From a virus, in IMG/VR virus record IMGVR_UViG_3300002835_001331, positions 1 to 21,009 of that record: 21,009 nucleotides of DNA; one strand, 5' to 3'. The number at the start of each line of letters is the position of its first letter. The first letter of the stretch is position 1. Shown here piece by piece: positions 13,432-21,009 of this stretch. The notes under the pieces were generated by a model, which saw nothing but the letters and a program-made list of their open reading frames with translations, had not been told where the DNA came from and ran no database searches. Position numbers and translations under genes: made by a program.

Positions 13432-15134
13432 TTTTATTTAAAAGTGTTAGATATCGAAATTTCCTTTCTACGGGAAATGTCTTTACTGAGATTCCTCTGA
13501 ATGAAAACGCCACGACGCTAATCGTTGGTGAAAACGGTGCTGGAAAGTCGACTTTCTTGGACGCCATCACATTCTCATTGTTTGGCAAGCCATTCCGCAA
13601 TATTAACAAACCTCAACTCATCAACTCAGTCAACGAAAAAGATTGCGTTGTTGAAGTTGAGTTTGATATTGGCAAGAAGTCATATAAAGTCATTCGTGGC
13701 ATCAAACCAAATGTATTTGAGATCTATTGCGATGGCGATCTTTTAAATCAAGACGCCAAGGCAAAAGATTATCAGGACCATCTTGAAAAGATTATTCTCA
13801 AGATGAACTACAAGTCATTCACGCAAATTGTTATTCTCGGATCGACTAACTTTACTCCGTTCATGCAGTTGTCAGCATCTGATCGTCGCACTGTGATTGA
13901 AGATCTATTAGACATTCAGATCTTTTCTGCGATGAATGTGATTGTTAAGAGTAAGATTCATACTCTGAAAGACGAAGCAGCGCAACTCAAGATTCAAATT
14001 GATAATACTAAAGATAAAATTGAACTACACAAGAAACATCTTGACGAACTCAAAAAGAATACAAAAGAAATCGTAGACGCAAAGAAACAAGAAGTGACTG
14101 AGAACACGGAATCGCTTTCAGCACTTGAAGTCGAAGCAACTGATAAAGAAACTCAAATTGAGAATCTATTAACTGAAGTGTCAGATGATGATTCAACCAG
14201 TAAGAAGTTTACGAAACTAAATCAACTTGAAGCCAAGATTGAAGGGAATATCCAGAAACTCGAGAAAGATATCGAGTTCTATTCTGTAAATTCAACTTGC
14301 CCAACCTGCGACCAAGACATTAATAACAAAGAAGAAAAAGTGCATACCTGTAATAGTAAAATTACAGAACTTACTGAAGGTCTAAGCAAACTAAAGGTGG
14401 AGAGTGATGCTGTTCTACAACGAATCCAAAGTATCAAGGCAACTCAAAAAGAACTCAAGACTCTTGAACAAGATCTTGTGCGCATCAATACTTCTCGCAA
14501 GCAGGTTCGAAACTACATTGCGAAACTTGAAAAAGAGATTGATGACATAGAAAGCAAACCAGCCATGAGCGATGAGTTTAAGGCTCAGTCAAAAGAGTTA
14601 TTAAACGCATTACAAACATATATCGAAAAAAGAAAAGAAGTATCTGAACAAACACAAAATTATGATATTGTCGCGCAGCTGCTTAAAGATGGCGGGATTA
14701 AGTCGAAAATCATTAAGCAATATGTTCCAGTCATAAACAAACTGGTTAATAAGTATTTGGCTGCGATGGACTTCTTTGTCAATTTTAATATTGACGAAGA
14801 ATTCAAGGAGACCATCAAGTCTCGTCACCGAGATGATTTCAGTTATGAAAACTTCTCAGAGGGTGAGAAGAAGCGTATTGATCTAGCACTGTTGTTTACC
14901 TGGAGGTCGGTCGCCAAGTTAAAGAACAGTGTCAATACAAATCTGCTCATCTTCGACGAGGTCTTTGATGGTTCTCTTGACATTAACGGTACTGAAGAAT
15001 TTATGAAGTTGATAAATATGTTTGTAGATAATACAAACATTTTTGTGATTACTCACAAGACTGATCAGATGATTGATAAGTTTAAACACACGATACGATT
15101 TGGTAAAGTGAAGAATTTTTCACAGATGGTGTAA
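13428..15134 (+). CDS. 46: Recombination nuclease ATPase subunit gp46 (Rad50-like)
   Basis: The start is GTG in a GTGA overlap with the gene 47 stop, with a TGGAG ribosome site. The 568-residue SMC/Rad50-type ATPase clamps DNA for gp47. Seen in order: the N-terminal ATPase half with Walker A GENGAGKST (34-42), QIVILGSTNFTPFM (133-146), a coiled coil (about 165-290), a zinc hook CPTCDQDI (291-298, Cys291 and Cys294), the returning coiled coil (about 305-410), the signature FSEGE (476-480), Walker B LLIFDE (506-511) and the switch His in ITHK (541-544). The size matches T4 gp46 (560 aa). Nothing is missing. Confidence 0.97.
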   Translation: MILFKSVRYRNFLSTGNVFTEIPLNENATTLIVGENGAGKSTFLDAITFSLFGKPFRNINKPQLINSVNEKDCVVEVEFDIGKKSYKVIRGIKPNVFEIYCDGDLLNQDAKAKDYQDHLEKIILKMNYKSFTQIVILGSTNFTPFMQLSASDRRTVIEDLLDIQIFSAMNVIVKSKIHTLKDEAAQLKIQIDNTKDKIELHKKHLDELKKNTKEIVDAKKQEVTENTESLSALEVEATDKETQIENLLTEVSDDDSTSKKFTKLNQLEAKIEGNIQKLEKDIEFYSVNSTCPTCDQDINNKEEKVHTCNSKITELTEGLSKLKVESDAVLQRIQSIKATQKELKTLEQDLVRINTSRKQVRNYIAKLEKEIDDIESKPAMSDEFKAQSKELLNALQTYIEKRKEVSEQTQNYDIVAQLLKDGGIKSKIIKQYVPVINKLVNKYLAAMDFFVNFNIDEEFKETIKSRHRDDFSYENFSEGEKKRIDLALLFTWRSVAKLKNSVNTNLLIFDEVFDGSLDINGTEEFMKLINMFVDNTNIFVITHKTDQMIDKFKHTIRFGKVKNFSQMV

Positions 15135-15136
15135 CT

Positions 15137-15694
15137 ATGAGTAGAATTTTAAAATATAGAGATGGCATGTTGGTTGAATATGAAATCCTCAAGTTAGTAG
15201 ATTTCTATGACTCAATTTTAAGGCAGCCAACAATTCCTTTTGATTTTGCTACTCGAAAAGATGCAGAGTATATCGCATACTCATTAGTAGAAACCATGGG
15301 ACATTATGGCGGGTTAGGATTGTCCGCCAATCAAGTTGGACTAAAAGATAGAGTCTGTGTTGTTAACATGGGCGAAAAGGCATGGGTGATGTTTAATCCG
15401 CAAATTTTAGAAACTTCTGGTAAGATTGCAGATTTTCAAGAAGGTTGTCTTTCTTATCCAGGATTGTATGTGAAGTGCAATCGCCTAGACCATATCAATG
15501 TTCGCTTTCAAGCAGTTGGTGGTCAATTTGTAGAACATGAGTTTGATGGGTTGACTGCAGTTTGTGTTCAACATGAAATTGATCACCTAGACGGTATTGT
15601 ATACACCAATCGCATCAGCCCAATTCATCTAGAAAACGCCAAGAGAAAGGTTAAAACCAATCTGAAAAAGATGGCAAAAGTAAGGGTGGCGTAA
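15137..15694 (+). CDS. def: Peptide deformylase
   Basis: This 185-residue metalloenzyme removes the formyl group from the N-terminal Met of new proteins. All three family motifs are intact: GLGLSANQ (59-66), EGCLS (102-106) and QHEIDH (145-150). Cys104, His146 and His150 are the metal ligands and Glu147 the catalytic base. It starts two bases after gene 46 with only a weak ribosome site; Met11 at 15167 is a possible alternative start. Phage-coded deformylases are well known in cyanophages, where the enzyme is thought to favour maturation of short-lived host proteins such as photosystem subunits. The C-terminal tail is short and basic. The end of the gene is the start of a repeat also found at 18050. 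Confidence 0.96.
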   Translation: MSRILKYRDGMLVEYEILKLVDFYDSILRQPTIPFDFATRKDAEYIAYSLVETMGHYGGLGLSANQVGLKDRVCVVNMGEKAWVMFNPQILETSGKIADFQEGCLSYPGLYVKCNRLDHINVRFQAVGGQFVEHEFDGLTAVCVQHEIDHLDGIVYTNRISPIHLENAKRKVKTNLKKMAKVRVA

Positions 15695-15705
15695 GTTATT
15701 GATTT
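15689..15705 (+). repeat. Intergenic direct repeat, copy 1
   Basis: The 17 bases GCGTAAGTTATTGATTT are identical to 18050-18066. Both copies include the last codon and the stop of the gene before, and both are followed about 37 bases later by the same type of promoter. They mark a duplicated intergenic cassette. Confidence 0.9.
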
Positions 15706-15722
15706 CATTATAGTTTTTTCCC

Positions 15723-15751
15723 TTTACTTTTCAGCTATTTTAAGGGATAAT
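15723..15751 (+). promoter_or_regulatory. Sigma70-like promoter, cassette copy 1
   Basis: TTTACT (15723-15728) and GATAAT (15746-15751) have a 17-base spacer. The expected start, about 7 bases after the -10 box, falls on the ATG at 15758, so the message would be leaderless or nearly so. AAGGGA at 15742-15747 could serve as a ribosome site only on readthrough transcripts from the deformylase operon. Confidence 0.7.
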
Positions 15752-15757
15752 GGCTAT

Positions 15758-18055
15758 ATGAAAACGAATTTACAGGCTTCTAAGTCTATCCTCGCCAAAC
15801 TCTTGGCGAGCGAGAATATCACGGTCTCGCACCAAAATGTCAAGACCGCATACTTCGACCTCAAAAATCGTACGATGATTCTTCCTGTTTGGAAGGACAT
15901 GGACGGCGACTTGTATGACTTGCTGACGGGTCACGAAGTCGGTCATGCTCTGAATACTCCTGAGCGTGGCTGGCACGATGCTGTGAAGGAAGGCGACAGC
16001 AAGAAGTTCAAAGATTTCTTGAATGTCGTTGAAGATGCACGCATTGAGAAACTTGTCAAGCGCAAGTTCCCTGGACTTTCCAAGTCCTTTGCTCGTGCTT
16101 ATGCTTCTCTTTATGAGCGCGACTTCTTCGGTATCAAGAAGGTCAGAGACCTTAACAAACTTAATCTGATTGACCGCATCAACCTGCGGTTCAAGATGGG
16201 CACGCATGTCATTGTCTCATTCAATGACTATGAGCGTGACATCATCCGAGAGATCGAGGCTGCTGAGACCTGGGACCAGGTTTATGATATTGCTCGCCGT
16301 GTGTATGATTACACCAAGCAAAATGAGCAAGACAAGATTCAAAATCTTCAAGATCTTCAAGAGCAGATGCGCCAAGAAAATCCAGAAGATTCTGGTGACT
16401 TCGATGACATCGATGACAATTCTGACTTTGAAGATGACATCGACGGTAACGATGGTGATGACTCTGACTCTGACCTAGACGAAGAGTCAGACGGTACTGA
16501 TGCTGAAGATTCGCAGAATCAAACTGAGTCTGAAGACGAAGACGATGCTAGCAGCGATCAATACAGTGCTGGTGAAGGCACTGAAGAAGAACAAGAAGAT
16601 GACAGTGAACCGCAGTCTGTAACTGACCGCAATTTCCGTCGCCGAGAGCAGGAATTGGTCAACGAGACTGGCAAGATCTTCATGTATGAATTGCCTGATG
16701 CTGTTCTTGAGAATATTATTCTTCCGAACACGGAAGTTGTGAATGATCTTGAGCGATTCTTCCGTGTGCAAGTGCTTGATAAGAATCTCCCTTACGGCAA
16801 AAATAATATCTCTTATGACACTGTTGTTCAGAAGTGTGTGCGCAAGTTTAACACCAACAACAAGAAAGTCATCATGCATATTCTGAAAGAATTCGAGATG
16901 CGCAAGAAAGCCAACGAGTATGCTCGAACGCAGACTGCTCGCACTGGTGAGTTGAACATGAATGTGCTGCACAAGTACAAGTTTAGTAATGACTTGTTCC
17001 GCAAGATCACTGTCGTGCCGAAGGGTAAGAATCATGGCTTTGTCATGTTTGTTGATATGTCTGGTTCGATGGCTGATATTCTTCGCAACACGATTGAGCA
17101 GATGCTTGTGCTTGCGTCGTTCTGTAAACTTGCCAAGGTTCCGTTTGAAGTTTATGGCTTCAGTGACGCCACCGCAGGTTATGAAAACAAGAAGTTGCGC
17201 AATATGCTGAGCAAAAGTCGTTTTGTCTCGAATCGTGCTGTTGACATGTCGATGCAGACGACTTGCTTTCACCTCAAGCATCTGATTGGCTCTTCTTTGT
17301 CGCCTGTTCAGTATCGTCGTGCGTTCAATGCGATGTGCGTTGTTGCCAATGAGTATGGTCGCCACTATGATTACTGGAACAACAGCCCTAGCACTGAAGA
17401 CAAAGATCATGGCATGTGGAAGTACGATTGGTACGAGTCTGGTTTTAGTTTGAATGGAACTCCGTTCCAAGAAACTCTGCTTGCTTCTCGTGAAATCATC
17501 ACCAAGTTTCAAAATGCACATCAACTTGATGTTTGCAATGTTGTGTATCTGACTGATGGTGACGGTGGCAGCAATCTATCGTTTCCGACGTGCGACGATT
17601 CTTCTTTGTATGATATTCGTCGTCAATCTGTTGTCTATCTGATTGATAAAAAGACCAAGAAGAAAGTCAAGGTGGAAAATAGTTATAACATGCAGTCTGC
17701 GCTCACGGAACTTGTTACCGATGTCACTGGCTGTAAGCATATCGGTTTCTTTGTTGGCAACAAGAAAGCCATTCAGCGTGATATGAAACATCTTGTTAAT
17801 GATAAGTCTCCCGCTGAACAAGATGCTGCCAAGAAAACTTTCCGCGAGCATAATTACTTTGCTGTTGATCGTCTTGGTTATGACAATTATTTCTATGTTG
17901 CTCTTCCGAGTAGCAACATTGTTGACGAAGAACTTGCTATCACCAGCAATATGAACAAGAACAAGATGGCTCGTGAGTTCTCCAAGAACCTGGGAAGCAA
18001 GAAGAGCAATCGCCTCCTGCTCACGAAACTCGCCGAAGAATTGGCGGTTGCGTAA
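15758..18055 (+). CDS. CobT-like protein: HExxH domain, acidic linker and von Willebrand A domain
   Basis: This 765-residue protein has an N-terminal zincin-like motif HEVGH (59-63) followed by NVVEDARIE (89-97), whose Glu92 could be the third metal ligand. A very acidic low-complexity linker spans about 205-286. The C-terminal von Willebrand A domain (about 425-670) has the metal-dependent adhesion motif DMSGS (433-437), a possible NGT threonine (566-568) and LTDGDGG (598-604). The layout recalls CobT and NorD partners of MoxR-type ATPases, and the next gene encodes such an ATPase. CobT works in cobalt chelation; here the intact HExxH suggests a peptidase or remodelling role instead. No signal peptide is seen, so it should be cytoplasmic. 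The start is ATG 15758 on a possibly leaderless message, with a hairpin at 15791-15810. Confidence 0.9.
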   Translation: MKTNLQASKSILAKLLASENITVSHQNVKTAYFDLKNRTMILPVWKDMDGDLYDLLTGHEVGHALNTPERGWHDAVKEGDSKKFKDFLNVVEDARIEKLVKRKFPGLSKSFARAYASLYERDFFGIKKVRDLNKLNLIDRINLRFKMGTHVIVSFNDYERDIIREIEAAETWDQVYDIARRVYDYTKQNEQDKIQNLQDLQEQMRQENPEDSGDFDDIDDNSDFEDDIDGNDGDDSDSDLDEESDGTDAEDSQNQTESEDEDDASSDQYSAGEGTEEEQEDDSEPQSVTDRNFRRREQELVNETGKIFMYELPDAVLENIILPNTEVVNDLERFFRVQVLDKNLPYGKNNISYDTVVQKCVRKFNTNNKKVIMHILKEFEMRKKANEYARTQTARTGELNMNVLHKYKFSNDLFRKITVVPKGKNHGFVMFVDMSGSMADILRNTIEQMLVLASFCKLAKVPFEVYGFSDATAGYENKKLRNMLSKSRFVSNRAVDMSMQTTCFHLKHLIGSSLSPVQYRRAFNAMCVVANEYGRHYDYWNNSPSTEDKDHGMWKYDWYESGFSLNGTPFQETLLASREIITKFQNAHQLDVCNVVYLTDGDGGSNLSFPTCDDSSLYDIRRQSVVYLIDKKTKKKVKVENSYNMQSALTELVTDVTGCKHIGFFVGNKKAIQRDMKHLVNDKSPAEQDAAKKTFREHNYFAVDRLGYDNYFYVALPSSNIVDEELAITSNMNKNKMAREFSKNLGSKKSNRLLLTKLAEELAVA
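15791..15810 (+). other. Hairpin near the 5' end of the vWA gene
   Basis: CTCGCCAA (15791-15798) and TTGGCGAG (15803-15810) form a perfect 8-bp stem with a four-base loop, within codons 12-18. On a message starting at 15758 the hairpin would begin about 33 bases from the 5' end, where it could affect initiation or stability. Confidence 0.5.
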
Positions 18056-18066
18056 GTTATTGATTT
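18050..18066 (+). repeat. Intergenic direct repeat, copy 2
   Basis: These 17 bases are identical to 15689-15705, again spanning the end and stop codon of the gene before. From here to the ATG at 18120 the spacing of all elements matches copy 1 to within one base (73 against 72 bases). Confidence 0.9.
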
Positions 18067-18084
18067 ATATAAAGAAAATACCGC

Positions 18085-18113
18085 TTTACTTTATAGTCGA
18101 TTCGAGCGATAAT
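18085..18113 (+). promoter_or_regulatory. Sigma70-like promoter, cassette copy 2
   Basis: TTTACT (18085-18090) and GATAAT (18108-18113) with a 17-base spacer repeat the promoter at 15723-15751. The expected start is at about 18120, which is again an ATG, but here it opens only a 9-codon frame (18120-18149) that ends on top of the start of the ATPase gene. Confidence 0.7.
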
Positions 18114-18119
18114 GGTTGT

Positions 18120-18149
18120 ATGGTAAATTATATTTGTTATGGAGTTTGA
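18120..18149 (+). other. Possible leaderless 9-codon leader frame
   Basis: ATG at 18120 stands at the same distance (12 bases) from the -10 box as the start codon of the vWA gene in cassette copy 1. It codes for MVNYICYGV and stops with TGA at 18147-18149, just before the GTG at 18151. It may be a remnant of the duplicated start or a leader that couples translation to the ATPase gene. No independent sign shows that it is expressed. Confidence 0.3.
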
Positions 18150-18150
18150 T

Positions 18151-19494
18151 GTGAGAAAGTCTAATTATGATCTGAAAGGCAAGATGGATGTTCTTGAGAA
18201 GTTGCATGCGCACTTCGACAAGGATGTAATCTCGCTGAAGGAACTCAACGAGTATTGCCTCAACAAGAAGAACGGGATTCCAAATTTCCCATACTTCATC
18301 CTGCGTGAGCGCAAGGTCGGTCGCGGTCTGTTTAATATCGCACCGAGTGCTGCCAGCGCGATCGCTGCTCCGAAGCAGACTGCTGAAGTCCCTGTGGCTG
18401 CTGCTGCGATGGTCGCGCAGGTTGTGAATATTGCCAGCCGTCGTGCCACAAATCTCACTGAGTCGTTTGTGCCTGACCGCAACGAAACTTATGTTCCGTT
18501 CGGATTCTACAACGACATGCGCGACATCATCAAGTCGCGAATCTTCTACCCCATCTACATCACTGGCTTGTCAGGTAACGGCAAGACATTCATGATTGAG
18601 CAGGTTTGTGCTGCGCTCAAGCGTGAGTTGATTCGCGTCAATATCACGAAACGCACGGATGAGTCTGATCTCATCGGCTCTTATGAATTGGTTGATGGCA
18701 ACACCATCCGTCGTGAAGGTCCAGTGATTACAGCGATGCGTCGTGGCGCTGTGCTTTTGCTCGATGAGTGTGACCTCGGCACCGAGGATATCCTGTGCTT
18801 GCAGCCGATTCTTGAGGGCAAGCCATATTTCGACAAGAAGACTGGTGAAGTTGTCCATCCCGCCGCTGGCTTCAATGTGATTGCGACTGCGAACACGAAG
18901 GGCAAGGGCAGCGACGATGGTCGGTTCATCGGTACAAACTTGCTCAACGAAGCATTCCTCGAGCGTTTCGCCATCACGGTCGAGCAGGAATATCCTCCTG
19001 CTGCCACTGAGCGCAAGATTCTTGAGAAGAATTTCGCTGTTCTTGGCATCACTGACACGATTTTCATTGACCGTCTTATCACTTGGGCTGAAGTCATCCG
19101 CAAGAGTTTCTCGGATGGTGCAGTTGATGAAGTTATCTCGACTCGTCGTCTTGTTCATATCAGCAAGGCATTCTCTATCTTCAACAATCGTTTGAAGGCA
19201 ATCGAGATGTGCTTGAACCGATTCGATACTGATACCAAGACTGCGTTCTTGGATCTGTACACGAAGGTTGATGCGGAGGCAACTCCTGCTCCTGCTGTTG
19301 TGGATTGGAATGATATAACGATTGAGCATAACCAATCGACTTTGTCTACTCGATTCTCATACAAGGGTGAGTCTGTGGAATTCTCAGCAAAGGAAATGCA
19401 TGAGTTCTATACACAGGGTCTCACAGAGGAAGCCATCAGGGCTCGAGTTCTTGACACTCTTGTCAAGATTGTTGCTGCGAAGGGAGTGAAGTAA
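18151..19494 (+). CDS. cobS: CobS/MoxR-type AAA+ ATPase
   Basis: I prefer the GTG at 18151 because TGGAG (18140-18144) lies six bases before it; ATG 18139, four codons upstream, has no ribosome site. The GTG form has 447 residues. Counting from the ATG form, the motifs are Walker A GLSGNGKT (143-150), a DLIGSYEL pore or insert region (177-184), Walker B VLLLDE (205-210), sensor 1 ATAN (249-252) and a NEAFLERF arginine-finger region (270-277). Before the AAA+ core is an Ala-rich linker (about 68-102). The pattern is that of the CobS/MoxR clade, and marine phage relatives are usually named CobS. Pairing with the vWA gene before it supports a joint ATPase/vWA machine; a real part in cobalamin synthesis is unproven. 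A TAATG overlap leads into the next gene. Confidence 0.9.
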   Translation: MRKSNYDLKGKMDVLEKLHAHFDKDVISLKELNEYCLNKKNGIPNFPYFILRERKVGRGLFNIAPSAASAIAAPKQTAEVPVAAAAMVAQVVNIASRRATNLTESFVPDRNETYVPFGFYNDMRDIIKSRIFYPIYITGLSGNGKTFMIEQVCAALKRELIRVNITKRTDESDLIGSYELVDGNTIRREGPVITAMRRGAVLLLDECDLGTEDILCLQPILEGKPYFDKKTGEVVHPAAGFNVIATANTKGKGSDDGRFIGTNLLNEAFLERFAITVEQEYPPAATERKILEKNFAVLGITDTIFIDRLITWAEVIRKSFSDGAVDEVISTRRLVHISKAFSIFNNRLKAIEMCLNRFDTDTKTAFLDLYTKVDAEATPAPAVVDWNDITIEHNQSTLSTRFSYKGESVEFSAKEMHEFYTQGLTEEAIRARVLDTLVKIVAAKGVK

Positions 19495-19667
19495 TGGAAC
19501 TGCAAGAAAAGGTGAATGTGTTTCTTGACAAACTTCGCGAGTCTGGTGCAATCAATATGTTTGGTGCTGCTCCTTATGTCTCTGATGCTTTTGGTGTCAG
19601 CAGGAATGAGGCTAAAGATCTTGTGAAGAATTGGATGCAAACTTTTGCTGAGAGGCATCCACAATAG
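19494..19667 (+). CDS. Small 57-residue protein coupled to the ATPase gene
   Basis: ATG 19494 overlaps the ATPase stop (TAATG) and has a GGGAG ribosome site. The 57-residue product is two or three predicted helices, with a central SGAINMFGAAPYVSDAFGVS segment (residues 17-36) and a NEAKDLVKNWMQTF end. The FGVSRNEAKDLVKNWM part looks like a short helix-turn-helix. I recall very similar small proteins in marine T4-like phages, all of unknown role. Tight coupling suggests it is made together with the ATPase and may be an adaptor or regulator. The codon pattern is clean and the frame ends only one base before the -35 box of the next promoter. Confidence 0.8.
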   Translation: MELQEKVNVFLDKLRESGAINMFGAAPYVSDAFGVSRNEAKDLVKNWMQTFAERHPQ

Positions 19668-19696
19668 TTTACTTTTGCCATTTGTTGTAGTATAAT
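19668..19696 (+). promoter_or_regulatory. Sigma70-like promoter for the 98-aa gene
   Basis: TTTACT (19668-19673) and a perfect TATAAT (19691-19696) are separated by 17 bases. The -35 region shares the octamer TTTACTTT with the promoters at 15723 and 18085. The start is expected near 19703, giving a leader of about 65 bases. Confidence 0.8.
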
Positions 19697-19703
19697 AAAT
19701 GGT

Positions 19704-19750
19704 ATATCGCAAGGAAAGCCCCAATCTTGCGGTATTATTGAAGGGGTATT
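19704..19750 (+). promoter_or_regulatory. Structured 5' leader (hairpin, possible pseudoknot)
   Basis: A 10-bp stem (19704-19713 with 19726-19735, one G-U pair) has a 12-base loop containing CCCC (19719-19722). GGGG at 19743-19746 could pair with that loop, forming an H-type pseudoknot or an alternative stem that is followed by TATTTTT. The structure starts almost at the predicted transcription start and ends before the AAGG ribosome site at 19757-19760. Confidence 0.5.
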
Positions 19751-19767
19751 TTTGTTAAGGTGATTAT

Positions 19768-20064
19768 ATGTCTAATGCTCTTGAATCTTTTGTTAGTTAT
19801 CTTGCTCGCGGCAACACCGTGACATCGCGACAGGTTCGTGCGATGTTTAAGGTTGACAATGCTGCTGACCTTGCGTATCGTGCGCGTAATGAGGGTATCT
19901 CGGTTTACACGAACCGTACGACTCTCAGCGACGGCACCAAGACTCTGTCGTATCGCCTCGGCAATCCTTCTGCGCAGTTCGAGAAGTATCTCGAGCGCGG
20001 TCAGATTGCTCGTGCGCGCAAGACGCTTTATCGCGACGCCATCAGCGTTCCGATGAATGCCTAA
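19768..20064 (+). CDS. Small probable winged-helix protein
   Basis: This 98-residue basic protein has an AAGG ribosome site seven bases before the ATG. Residues 17-62 look like a winged helix: helices around TSRQVRAMF (19-27) and AADLAYRARNEG (32-43), then a strand-turn-strand wing VYTNRTTLSDGTKTLSYRL (46-64). Residues 71-91 (FEKYLERGQIARARKTLYRD) echo the N-terminal FVSYLARGNTVTSRQVRAMF (8-27), suggesting an internal duplication of the first helices. A DNA-binding or regulatory role is inferred only from this pattern. The gene stands alone between its own promoter and a strong terminator and is GC-rich (about 55% over 19861-19920). Confidence 0.85.
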   Translation: MSNALESFVSYLARGNTVTSRQVRAMFKVDNAADLAYRARNEGISVYTNRTTLSDGTKTLSYRLGNPSAQFEKYLERGQIARARKTLYRDAISVPMNA

Positions 20065-20090
20065 TTGTTTAGGCTAAACCGTTCTGGTTT
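20059..20090 (+). repeat. Overlapping small inverted repeats before the terminator
   Basis: Three nested options exist: GCCTAA/TTAGGC (20059-20064 with 20069-20074, over the stop codon), GTTTA/TAAAC (20067-20071 with 20075-20079) and AAACC/GGTTT (20076-20080 with 20086-20090). The last has the loop GTTCT, the same loop as the terminator hairpin that follows at once. Confidence 0.5.
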
Positions 20091-20123
20091 CTGTGGGGGC
20101 AGTTCTTGCCCCCACAGTTTTTT
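20091..20123 (+). terminator. Rho-independent terminator after the 98-aa gene
   Basis: A perfect 11-bp stem (20091-20101 with 20107-20117, CTGTGGGGGCA/TGCCCCCACAG), loop GTTCT, is followed by six T (20118-20123). The last two T are also the first bases of the next promoter's -35 box. Confidence 0.95.
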
Positions 20124-20150
20124 GACATTGCAACTTGCTGGATATATAAT
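20122..20150 (+). promoter_or_regulatory. Perfect-consensus sigma70 promoter
   Basis: TTGACA (20122-20127) and TATAAT (20145-20150) are both perfect and 17 bases apart. This is a strong early-type promoter for the gene at 20171, with a start near 20157 and a short leader containing AGGAG (20160-20164). Confidence 0.92.
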
Positions 20151-20170
20151 ATCATGAGCAGGAGAAACTT

Positions 20171-21009
20171 ATGACAAAAATTATTATCGCGCAATCTAAA
20201 ATTGACTGTGAGCATTTGCTAGGACAATTCCTAGATGAATCTCATTTTGATACTGTTATCAATGAAGACACTGATTGCTTTCTGCATAGTGAAGATGAAA
20301 GCAATATTGCATTTAAGTTTCGTAAAAACTATTTCAGCAAGCAAGAGCAAGATGCTGCATATACTGGATTGCGTGAAGCAGCAACAGCAACTCAAAATCG
20401 TGGACTTGCCGCAGGACCGAAAGGTGAAAAGTGTGGTGGTCGCGAGTGGGTAAATGAATTTCAATTGCGCGTTCTAGATTTCTTCAAGAAACAGACAGAA
20501 TATTCTGTCATCAAAATTAATATTGCCGAAGAAGTTGCTGCCTTGCGCGAACGATACGCATCCGAAGATTCTTCACGCGGTCTAGTGTGGTTGAGCGCAA
20601 AGGTCAAAGAAGATAATTTTGATTTTGAAACTTGGCTTAAGAAAGTTATCAAAATGTCAATCAAAGAGCGCAAGGAAGAAGCACATGGCGTTGAAGAAAC
20701 ATACATCTCCGATACGACATATGCTAATGTCGTCAATTCAGGTATTGCTGGATGGTTTGATCGTTATCCTCGGATTCCTTACGGTCGTGCTACTTCTTAT
20801 ACACAAAATCATTACGACAAGTTTCAGATGGGTTTTCCGTTTCTTCAAACGCTAGACAAGGGATTCAGGGAACTGTTACCCACAAAACATGCCGCTCAAC
20901 GCGCAGCGGCTGATAAAATTGATCCAGCATTCCTGGTTCCAGGAACTGTGTTTACTACAGTTACAGTAAACAAGACATTCCGAACAGCAGCGCATCGCGA
21001 TGCTGGTGA
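20171..21009 (+). CDS. TET/JBP-like Fe(II)/2-oxoglutarate DNA-base dioxygenase (3' end outside window)
   Basis: The frame runs from ATG 20171 (AGGAG ribosome site six bases before it) through the end of the window, giving 279 full codons. The last third matches the pattern of phage TET/JBP dioxygenases: a GRATSYTQNHYDKFQ segment (about 202-216), PFLQTLDKGFRELLP, VPGTVFTTVTVNKTFRT (256-272) and the iron-binding HRD (His275, Asp277) in AAHRDAG. The second His ligand and the oxoglutarate-binding Arg would lie past the edge. Such enzymes hydroxylate the methyl group of thymine or 5-methylcytosine in DNA, often as the first step of hypermodification. The N-terminal 190 residues have no domain I recognise. 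The strong early promoter fits an enzyme needed before or during replication. The alternative is another 2-oxoglutarate oxygenase family. Confidence 0.72.
   Translation, partial: MTKIIIAQSKIDCEHLLGQFLDESHFDTVINEDTDCFLHSEDESNIAFKFRKNYFSKQEQDAAYTGLREAATATQNRGLAAGPKGEKCGGREWVNEFQLRVLDFFKKQTEYSVIKINIAEEVAALRERYASEDSSRGLVWLSAKVKEDNFDFETWLKKVIKMSIKERKEEAHGVEETYISDTTYANVVNSGIAGWFDRYPRIPYGRATSYTQNHYDKFQMGFPFLQTLDKGFRELLPTKHAAQRAAADKIDPAFLVPGTVFTTVTVNKTFRTAAHRDAG

Follow-up and report, generated by a model that had tools for sequence, protein, structure and literature searches.

The question raised by the right-hand end of this DNA is whether a T4-like phage carries an enzyme that oxidizes bases in its own DNA and, if so, which base would be oxidized and what would become of the product. 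The window, as we call the whole stretch analyzed, is an entire IMG/VR record of 21,009 bases (G+C 41%), across which T4-like genes, named here by resemblance, follow in order (tail sheath, portal, prohead genes, major capsid protein, UvsY/W, gp55, and gp47/46); scanning it against Rfam and for tRNAs gave no matches. Its last gene runs off the end of the record (Table 1). A preliminary description of the sequence had read this gene as a TET/JBP-like base hydroxylase from a VPGTVFTTVTVNKTFRT strand followed by HRD, and both elements are present in the open frame, at residues 256–277. The piece of the gene within the window matched the Tet_JBP profile at 1.5e-6 and 28 bits, which is under the cut-off of 34.9 bits. 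The gene was completed from sister contigs 99–100% identical to the window: L007 is identical to it over the 1547 bp of overlap and encodes a complete TET protein of 430 residues, and L008 shares 99.25% identity with it over 10.8 kb.

Table 1. Features of the TET/JBP gene and of the region preceding it (positions in the window).
Feature	Position	Strand	Remarks
Intrinsic terminator, 12 pairs + T-run	20091..20117	+	ends the upstream unit, setting the promoter apart from it; most relatives have a comparable stem-loop upstream
Consensus sigma-70 promoter, TTGACA-17 bp-TATAAT	20122..20150	+	12/12 match; best in 15000-21009
AGGAG ribosome-binding site	20160..20164	+	from sequence; 6 nt 5' of ATG
TET/JBP-type Fe(II)/2-oxoglutarate DNA dioxygenase gene, 5' part	20171..21009	+	279/430 codons; ATG start; truncated by record end
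VPGTVFTTVTVNKTFRT core strand	20936..20986	+	residues 256-272; conserved in A1-A3
HxD iron-binding motif, H275-R276-D277	20993..21001	+	from sequence; after the VPGTVFTTVTVNKTFRT strand

The complete protein matched Tet_JBP (PF12851) at 88.3 bits (E = 4.2e-25), well over the curated cut-off, and phrog_24024, a PHROG of unknown function, at 552.5 bits. The distal His and Arg which the preliminary description expected further downstream lie beyond the window, as does a clamp-like tail discussed below, and were read from L007 as H328 and R342. Of 117 full-length relatives, 116 retain the iron ligands H275, D277, and H328 and the 2-oxoglutarate (2OG)-binding R342. This conservation, together with an intact frame in the sister contigs, makes it hardly credible that the gene is inactive or decaying, even though one short-form TET (L117:2381-3286) has Gln in place of its first iron-binding His (QYD) and is either a dead enzyme or affected by a sequence error.

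An AlphaFold2 model of the TET protein, built with 40 relatives, was confident throughout (pLDDT 90.5). In a Foldseek comparison with the PDB its best 26 matches were all TET enzymes (NgTET1, CcTet, CMD1, and human TET2; top E 4e-10), followed by FTO at 2e-5, with AlkB, and in a profile search of PDB sequences TET2 came out on top, matches to TauD-like proteins being weak. Those TauD-like matches and the versatility of the 2OG-Fe superfamily could be taken to mean that the enzyme acts on a free nucleotide, a protein, or RNA, but DNA-acting TETs account for all of its nearest folds, ahead of FTO/AlkB, and its polymerase-like tail and DNA-modifying partners such as ADDT and TAGT (see below) render such a substrate very improbable. 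Thus profile, motif, fold, and gene neighborhood all back the initial assignment, and the gene encodes a TET/JBP-family Fe(II)/2OG dioxygenase, for which oxidation of the methyl group of a DNA base is very probable.

One element of the preliminary description, that an N-terminal extension of roughly 190 residues may form a separate, unnamed domain, has to be given up. Short-form TETs of ~300 residues occur in Pelagibacter-type phages, and residues ~1–84 of our protein align with them, while residues ~85–178 correspond to an insertion of ~95 residues that is extra in the long form. We rejected a free-standing N-terminal domain, since one part of the region is common to the short-form enzymes and the rest is inserted in a confidently predicted fold.

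The perfect promoter attributed to the TET gene was borne out, with all 12 positions matching, a spacer of 17, and a location right behind a strong terminator. Promoters matching at 12 of 12 positions were also found in 34 of 45 distinct upstream regions of relatives, compared with 22 of 3000 random 100-mers. It may act “early,” as proposed. Further upstream, the window encodes a phage peptide deformylase (15137-15694; 135.8 bits), which is near the TET gene in phage DLP6 too and is also present in Cr30, and a pair formed by a peptidase-like protein (phrog_459) and a CobS-like AAA ATPase (phrog_249, labeled porphyrin biosynthesis) at 15758-19494, which is kept upstream of TET in relatives. Between the CobS-like ATPase and TET is a 98-residue ORF (19768-20064) with a weak winged-helix match, a possible regulator, which is upstream of TET in most relatives.

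Downstream of TET, L007 encodes a GT-B glycosyltransferase (PF00534, 35.8 bits), an Anp1-like GT-A, a dNMP kinase, the sliding clamp, and the clamp loader, and in all contigs of the window's type the PF00534 GT-B is directly 3' of TET. An HNH/NUMOD3 endonuclease gene, probably that of a homing endonuclease, lies between the clamp and clamp-loader genes (L007:6840-7520) and is not there in most relatives. We compared 80 related loci, 54 of which have a complete slot between TET and GT-A. Most loci share the same flanks, TET to the left and GT-A, dNMP kinase, and clamp to the right, around a slot whose content differs: this slot holds a GT-B in 19 of the complete loci, a P-loop kinase with an amino-acid:DNA transferase (ADDT, PF18724) in 33, and a TET-associated glycosyltransferase (TAGT, PF20691) in two. 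GT-B and ADDT were together in none of the 54 complete slots, and the ADDT and kinase cassette was absent from the window's own (GT-B) type among the loci compared. A class-II glutamine amidotransferase usually accompanies ADDT in these slots, and a putative amidoligase, a GNAT, and a ParB-like protein often do so. The ADDT of sister phages scored 72.8 bits and the L048 kinase 49 bits against Ploopntkinase3; the L023 kinase had a weak AAA match only. When slot content was placed on the TET tree, at least five changes were counted, four of them forced by well-supported branches, and L020 (GT-B) is sister to L047 (ADDT). The TET gene opens a predicted modification operon with an exchangeable slot that is swapped between related phages.

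Similar associations were found outside these loci. On a contig assigned to a Gammaproteobacteria MAG (L241:7977-10997), a single protein of 1006 residues joins Tet_JBP through an unnamed middle region to a P-loop kinase; the kinase part and the cassette kinase share 48% identity across 189 residues, and an ADDT homolog is encoded ~5 kb upstream on the same contig. In Gordonia phage LittleMunchkin the genes for Tet_JBP, ADDT (97 bits), and Ploopntkinase3 (196 bits) adjoin one another, and in cyanophage S-CBWM1 and locus L242 TET is followed by TAGT. The structural model of the cassette GT-B was weak (pLDDT 67), with the T4 α-glucosyltransferase (α-GT) at Foldseek rank 2; we rejected this structure as proof of a DNA glucosyltransferase, as general GT4 enzymes score like T4 α-GT and in view of the low pLDDT. 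Sugar-metabolism genes also occur near TET, namely an inositol-1-phosphate synthase in Cr30 (L003:17293-18474) and a UDP-galactopyranose mutase in C48C1 (L004:14375-15385), which hint at unusual sugar caps.

Neighboring genes had been proposed as a check on base modification: glycosyltransferases, a kinase, and (in sister phages) ADDT are indeed encoded downstream, and no C5-methyltransferase was found in the long-form relatives searched. TET enzymes can take 5-methylcytosine (5mC) to further oxidized states, so that the enzyme might instead serve as a demethylase or counter-defense acting on 5mC of incoming or host DNA, with no hypermodification pathway and with neighbors that are coincidental. 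We regard this as very improbable, given that TET is consistently linked to glycosyltransferase or kinase-ADDT cassettes in loci with readable context, that a TET-kinase fusion exists, and that TET and its glycosyltransferase partner have tails in common. Modification of the phage DNA is strongly suggested: the downstream glycosyltransferase, kinase, and ADDT genes supply the enzymes that a hypermodification pathway would require, and the DNA of DLP6 is listed as restriction-resistant (PMC8228603). This cultured phage has a full-length TET ortholog (49% identity) and a TAGT gene, and profile searches, together with its annotation past the first 15 kb, gave no C5-methyltransferase, thymidylate-synthase-type hydroxymethylase, or deazaguanine-annotated gene.

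Which base is oxidized, thymine or 5mC, was addressed through the enzymes that could supply either substrate. A profile search for C5-methyltransferases (PF00145) gave none in DLP6, Cr30, C48C1, S-CBWM1, HTVC112P, P12024L, Nigel, MementoMori, and LittleMunchkin, none in G001 (173 kb), G074 (197 kb, GT-B type), or any long-form relative searched, including records of 156–197 kb, and none in 36 short-form loci or in the fragments searched; the same search scored 187 bits in phage Melnitz. A thymidylate-synthase-type protein (PF00303, the dUMP/dCMP hydroxymethylase family) was likewise found in none of G001, G074, DLP6, and C48C1, and once in Cr30. We also considered a hidden phage C5-methyltransferase in G001 or DLP6 and rejected it, the SAM-binding ORFs of the former and the annotated methyltransferases of the latter all being FkbM or small-molecule types. 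With neither enzyme found in the large close relatives, TET is left as the one recognized enzyme that could introduce a hydroxymethyl group, and among methylated bases only thymine is abundant, which makes thymine, converted to 5-hydroxymethyluracil (5hmU), the preferred substrate, a reading that we hold with somewhat better than even confidence.

The same pathway could operate on cytosine, with 5mC provided by the host or by an unrecognized phage methyltransferase, oxidized to 5hmC, and then glycosylated or aminoacylated. Phage TET is reported to be active on 5mC (Burke et al., 2021), and the related marine T4-like phage Melnitz encodes TET near its polymerase, an HhaI-type C5-methyltransferase, and a P-loop kinase. 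The active site also speaks to this: in a comparison restricted to TET2, NgTET1, and CMD1, D280 aligned with TET2 N1387, NgTET1 D234, and CMD1 D350, which hydrogen-bond N4 of 5mC (PMC7854593), and its presence at that contact position argues for 5mC; R350 aligned with R418 of CMD1, which is a 5mC enzyme. Against cytosine stand the methyltransferase searches above and the consideration that host 5mC would be sparse and host-dependent, and we consider cytosine an unlikely substrate, if one to be taken seriously. At two loci (L048:2006-2791 and L049:4680-5465) a methyltransferase-like protein of 261 residues is encoded between TET and ADDT; it has FAGVG, has FPNSS where C5-methyltransferases have PCQ, and gave no good Pfam match.

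The long-form TETs end in STLEDLFG or a near variant, which resembles the SLDFLFG at the end of the T4 DNA polymerase gp43 and the SLDFLYE near the end of gp55; hydrophobic and acidic C-termini of this kind are ligands of the clamp, gp45, and can replace one another (PMC2988020). The tail is present in 53 of 56 distinct long-form TETs vs. none of 27 short-form TETs, and the TET of Cr30 has a tail that is cut down. GT-B relatives of at least 69% identity with a readable end are all tailed, and the tail is missing from three distant GT-B homologs without TET. The TAGT proteins of DLP6 and Cr30 end in DLSSFFN and DLSKLF, respectively (cf. DLSSLFD in the Cr30 polymerase). A strict form of the motif occurred in the 173 kb genome G001 only in TET and the DNA polymerase (0.16 expected), and a looser form occurred 10 times in four genomes vs. 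0.87 expected, although both patterns were picked after the tail had been seen, so that the expected counts are a guide and not a formal test, and the conservation and the two absence controls weigh more. Eight of the 10 looser occurrences were in polymerases, TETs, the Cr30 TAGT, and an adenine-methyltransferase-like protein of C48C1 adjoining its polymerase; the gene for the latter (33480-34364 in OQ984149) is right after the DNA polymerase gene and its product ends in STLDAFFG. Sharing of this tail between TET and its glycosyltransferases suggests, at the level of sequence, that modification may take place at the replication fork through tethering to the clamp. T4 α-GT binds gp45 (PMC13216743) and its C-terminus is without this motif, so such a tail is not the sole route to the clamp.

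We propose that the TET/JBP enzyme would hydroxylate the 5-methyl group of a pyrimidine in the newly replicated DNA of the phage itself, the base being most likely thymine and the product 5hmU, and that its C-terminal tail, of the kind found in T4-type polymerases, would bind the sliding clamp and keep the enzyme at the fork. The hydroxyl would then be capped with a sugar or amino acid by an enzyme of the next, exchangeable cassette: in the window phage by the GT-B glycosyltransferase with the same tail, which would give a base-J-like glycosylated base, and in sister phages by P-loop kinase and amino-acid:DNA transferase, or by TAGT. All this would presumably serve to protect the DNA against restriction and other host defenses, and modified bases may shield the phage DNA in the manner envisaged in the preliminary description. 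We think this scheme of a clamp-held TET, hydroxylation of probable thymine, capping by the neighboring cassette, and protected DNA rather probable as a whole. The more pointed proposition, that a bacterial virus has a replisome-coupled counterpart of base J in which a clamp-tethered TET/JBP enzyme would oxidize thymine in its own DNA and the cap would come from an exchanged cassette, seems to us evenly balanced.

Several known systems bear comparison. In the kinetoplastid base J pathway (JBP1/JBP2 and J-glucosyltransferase) a TET/JBP oxygenase is likewise followed by a glycosyltransferase acting on 5hmU, as in the scheme predicted here; the present system differs in being from a phage, with thymine specificity that is predicted, no J-binding domain, and a GT-B of the GT4-like family (PF00534). 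Phages ViI, M6, and phiW-14 make 5hmdU at the nucleotide level via a thymidylate-synthase-type enzyme. Their thymidine hypermodification (Lee et al., 2018) employs a DNA kinase and ADDT-type transferases on 5hmU, as in the sister cassettes, but here none of the synthase-type enzyme was found except the PF00303 protein of Cr30, leaving TET as the only candidate source. With the glucosylation of hydroxymethylcytosine in T4/T6 (α-GT, β-GT, and TAGT) our system would have post-replicative glycosylation in common, and TAGT occurs in related operons; however, no dCMP hydroxymethylase was found here, the hydroxyl is predicted to be introduced in DNA by TET, and the tail is like that of gp43, not α-GT. 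Phage TETs coupled to a C5-methyltransferase, reportedly described by Burke et al. (2021) and found here in Melnitz (Kyanoviridae, source Bermuda/BATS), are also Tet_JBP proteins of a tailed phage in an operon with DNA-tailoring enzymes; at L185:1415-8090 the DNA polymerase, HhaI-type C5-methyltransferase, Tet_JBP, an unknown 427-residue protein, and a P-loop kinase are in a row. In contrast, searches of the window clade found no C5-methyltransferase, its TET is the long form with insertion and clamp-like tail, and in the Melnitz TET the position eight residues downstream of the 2OG-binding Arg is D instead of R. Hence the earlier statement that modified bases are not standard in marine T4-like phages is right only in part, given Melnitz and the Tet_JBP and TAGT of S-CBWM1.

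Known components of phage DNA hypermodification include TET/JBP proteins, glycosyltransferases, kinases, and ADDT enzymes, reportedly described by Iyer in 2013 and Burke in 2021, and Pfam already names TAGT and ADDT. Four elements seem to be new: a T4-like clade apparently lacking a methyltransferase, an exchangeable slot flanked by fixed neighbors, the common clamp-like tails, and the TET-kinase fusion; the literature searched returned no description of them, and their novelty is provisional. If correct, the scheme would represent a third phage route to hypermodified pyrimidines, by methyl oxidation in DNA without a phage methyltransferase or modified nucleotide pool, and would suggest that such oxidizing enzymes ride the replication clamp. 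It would also offer a set of natural variants at one locus, the same oxidase being combined with sugar-, amino-acid-, or TAGT-type capping in different phages, and the chemistry is directly testable in the cultured phages Cr30 and DLP6.

The TET homologs of DLP6, Cr30, and C48C1 have 45–49% identity to the window enzyme and that of S-CBWM1 29%, and a search for related loci with the Cr30 protein returned Cr30 only. The phrog_24024 proteins and the “SNF2 DNA repair protein” of DLP6, Cr30, and S-CBWM1 are direct homologs of the window enzyme, there unannotated or misannotated and actually Tet_JBP. In the GenBank records of DLP6, Cr30, S-CBWM1, Nigel, and MementoMori the TET/JBP proteins carry the misleading labels, for anyone searching, of “SNF2 DNA repair protein” or “queuine tRNA-ribosyltransferase,” and the present analysis offers testable names for proteins so annotated or of unknown function.
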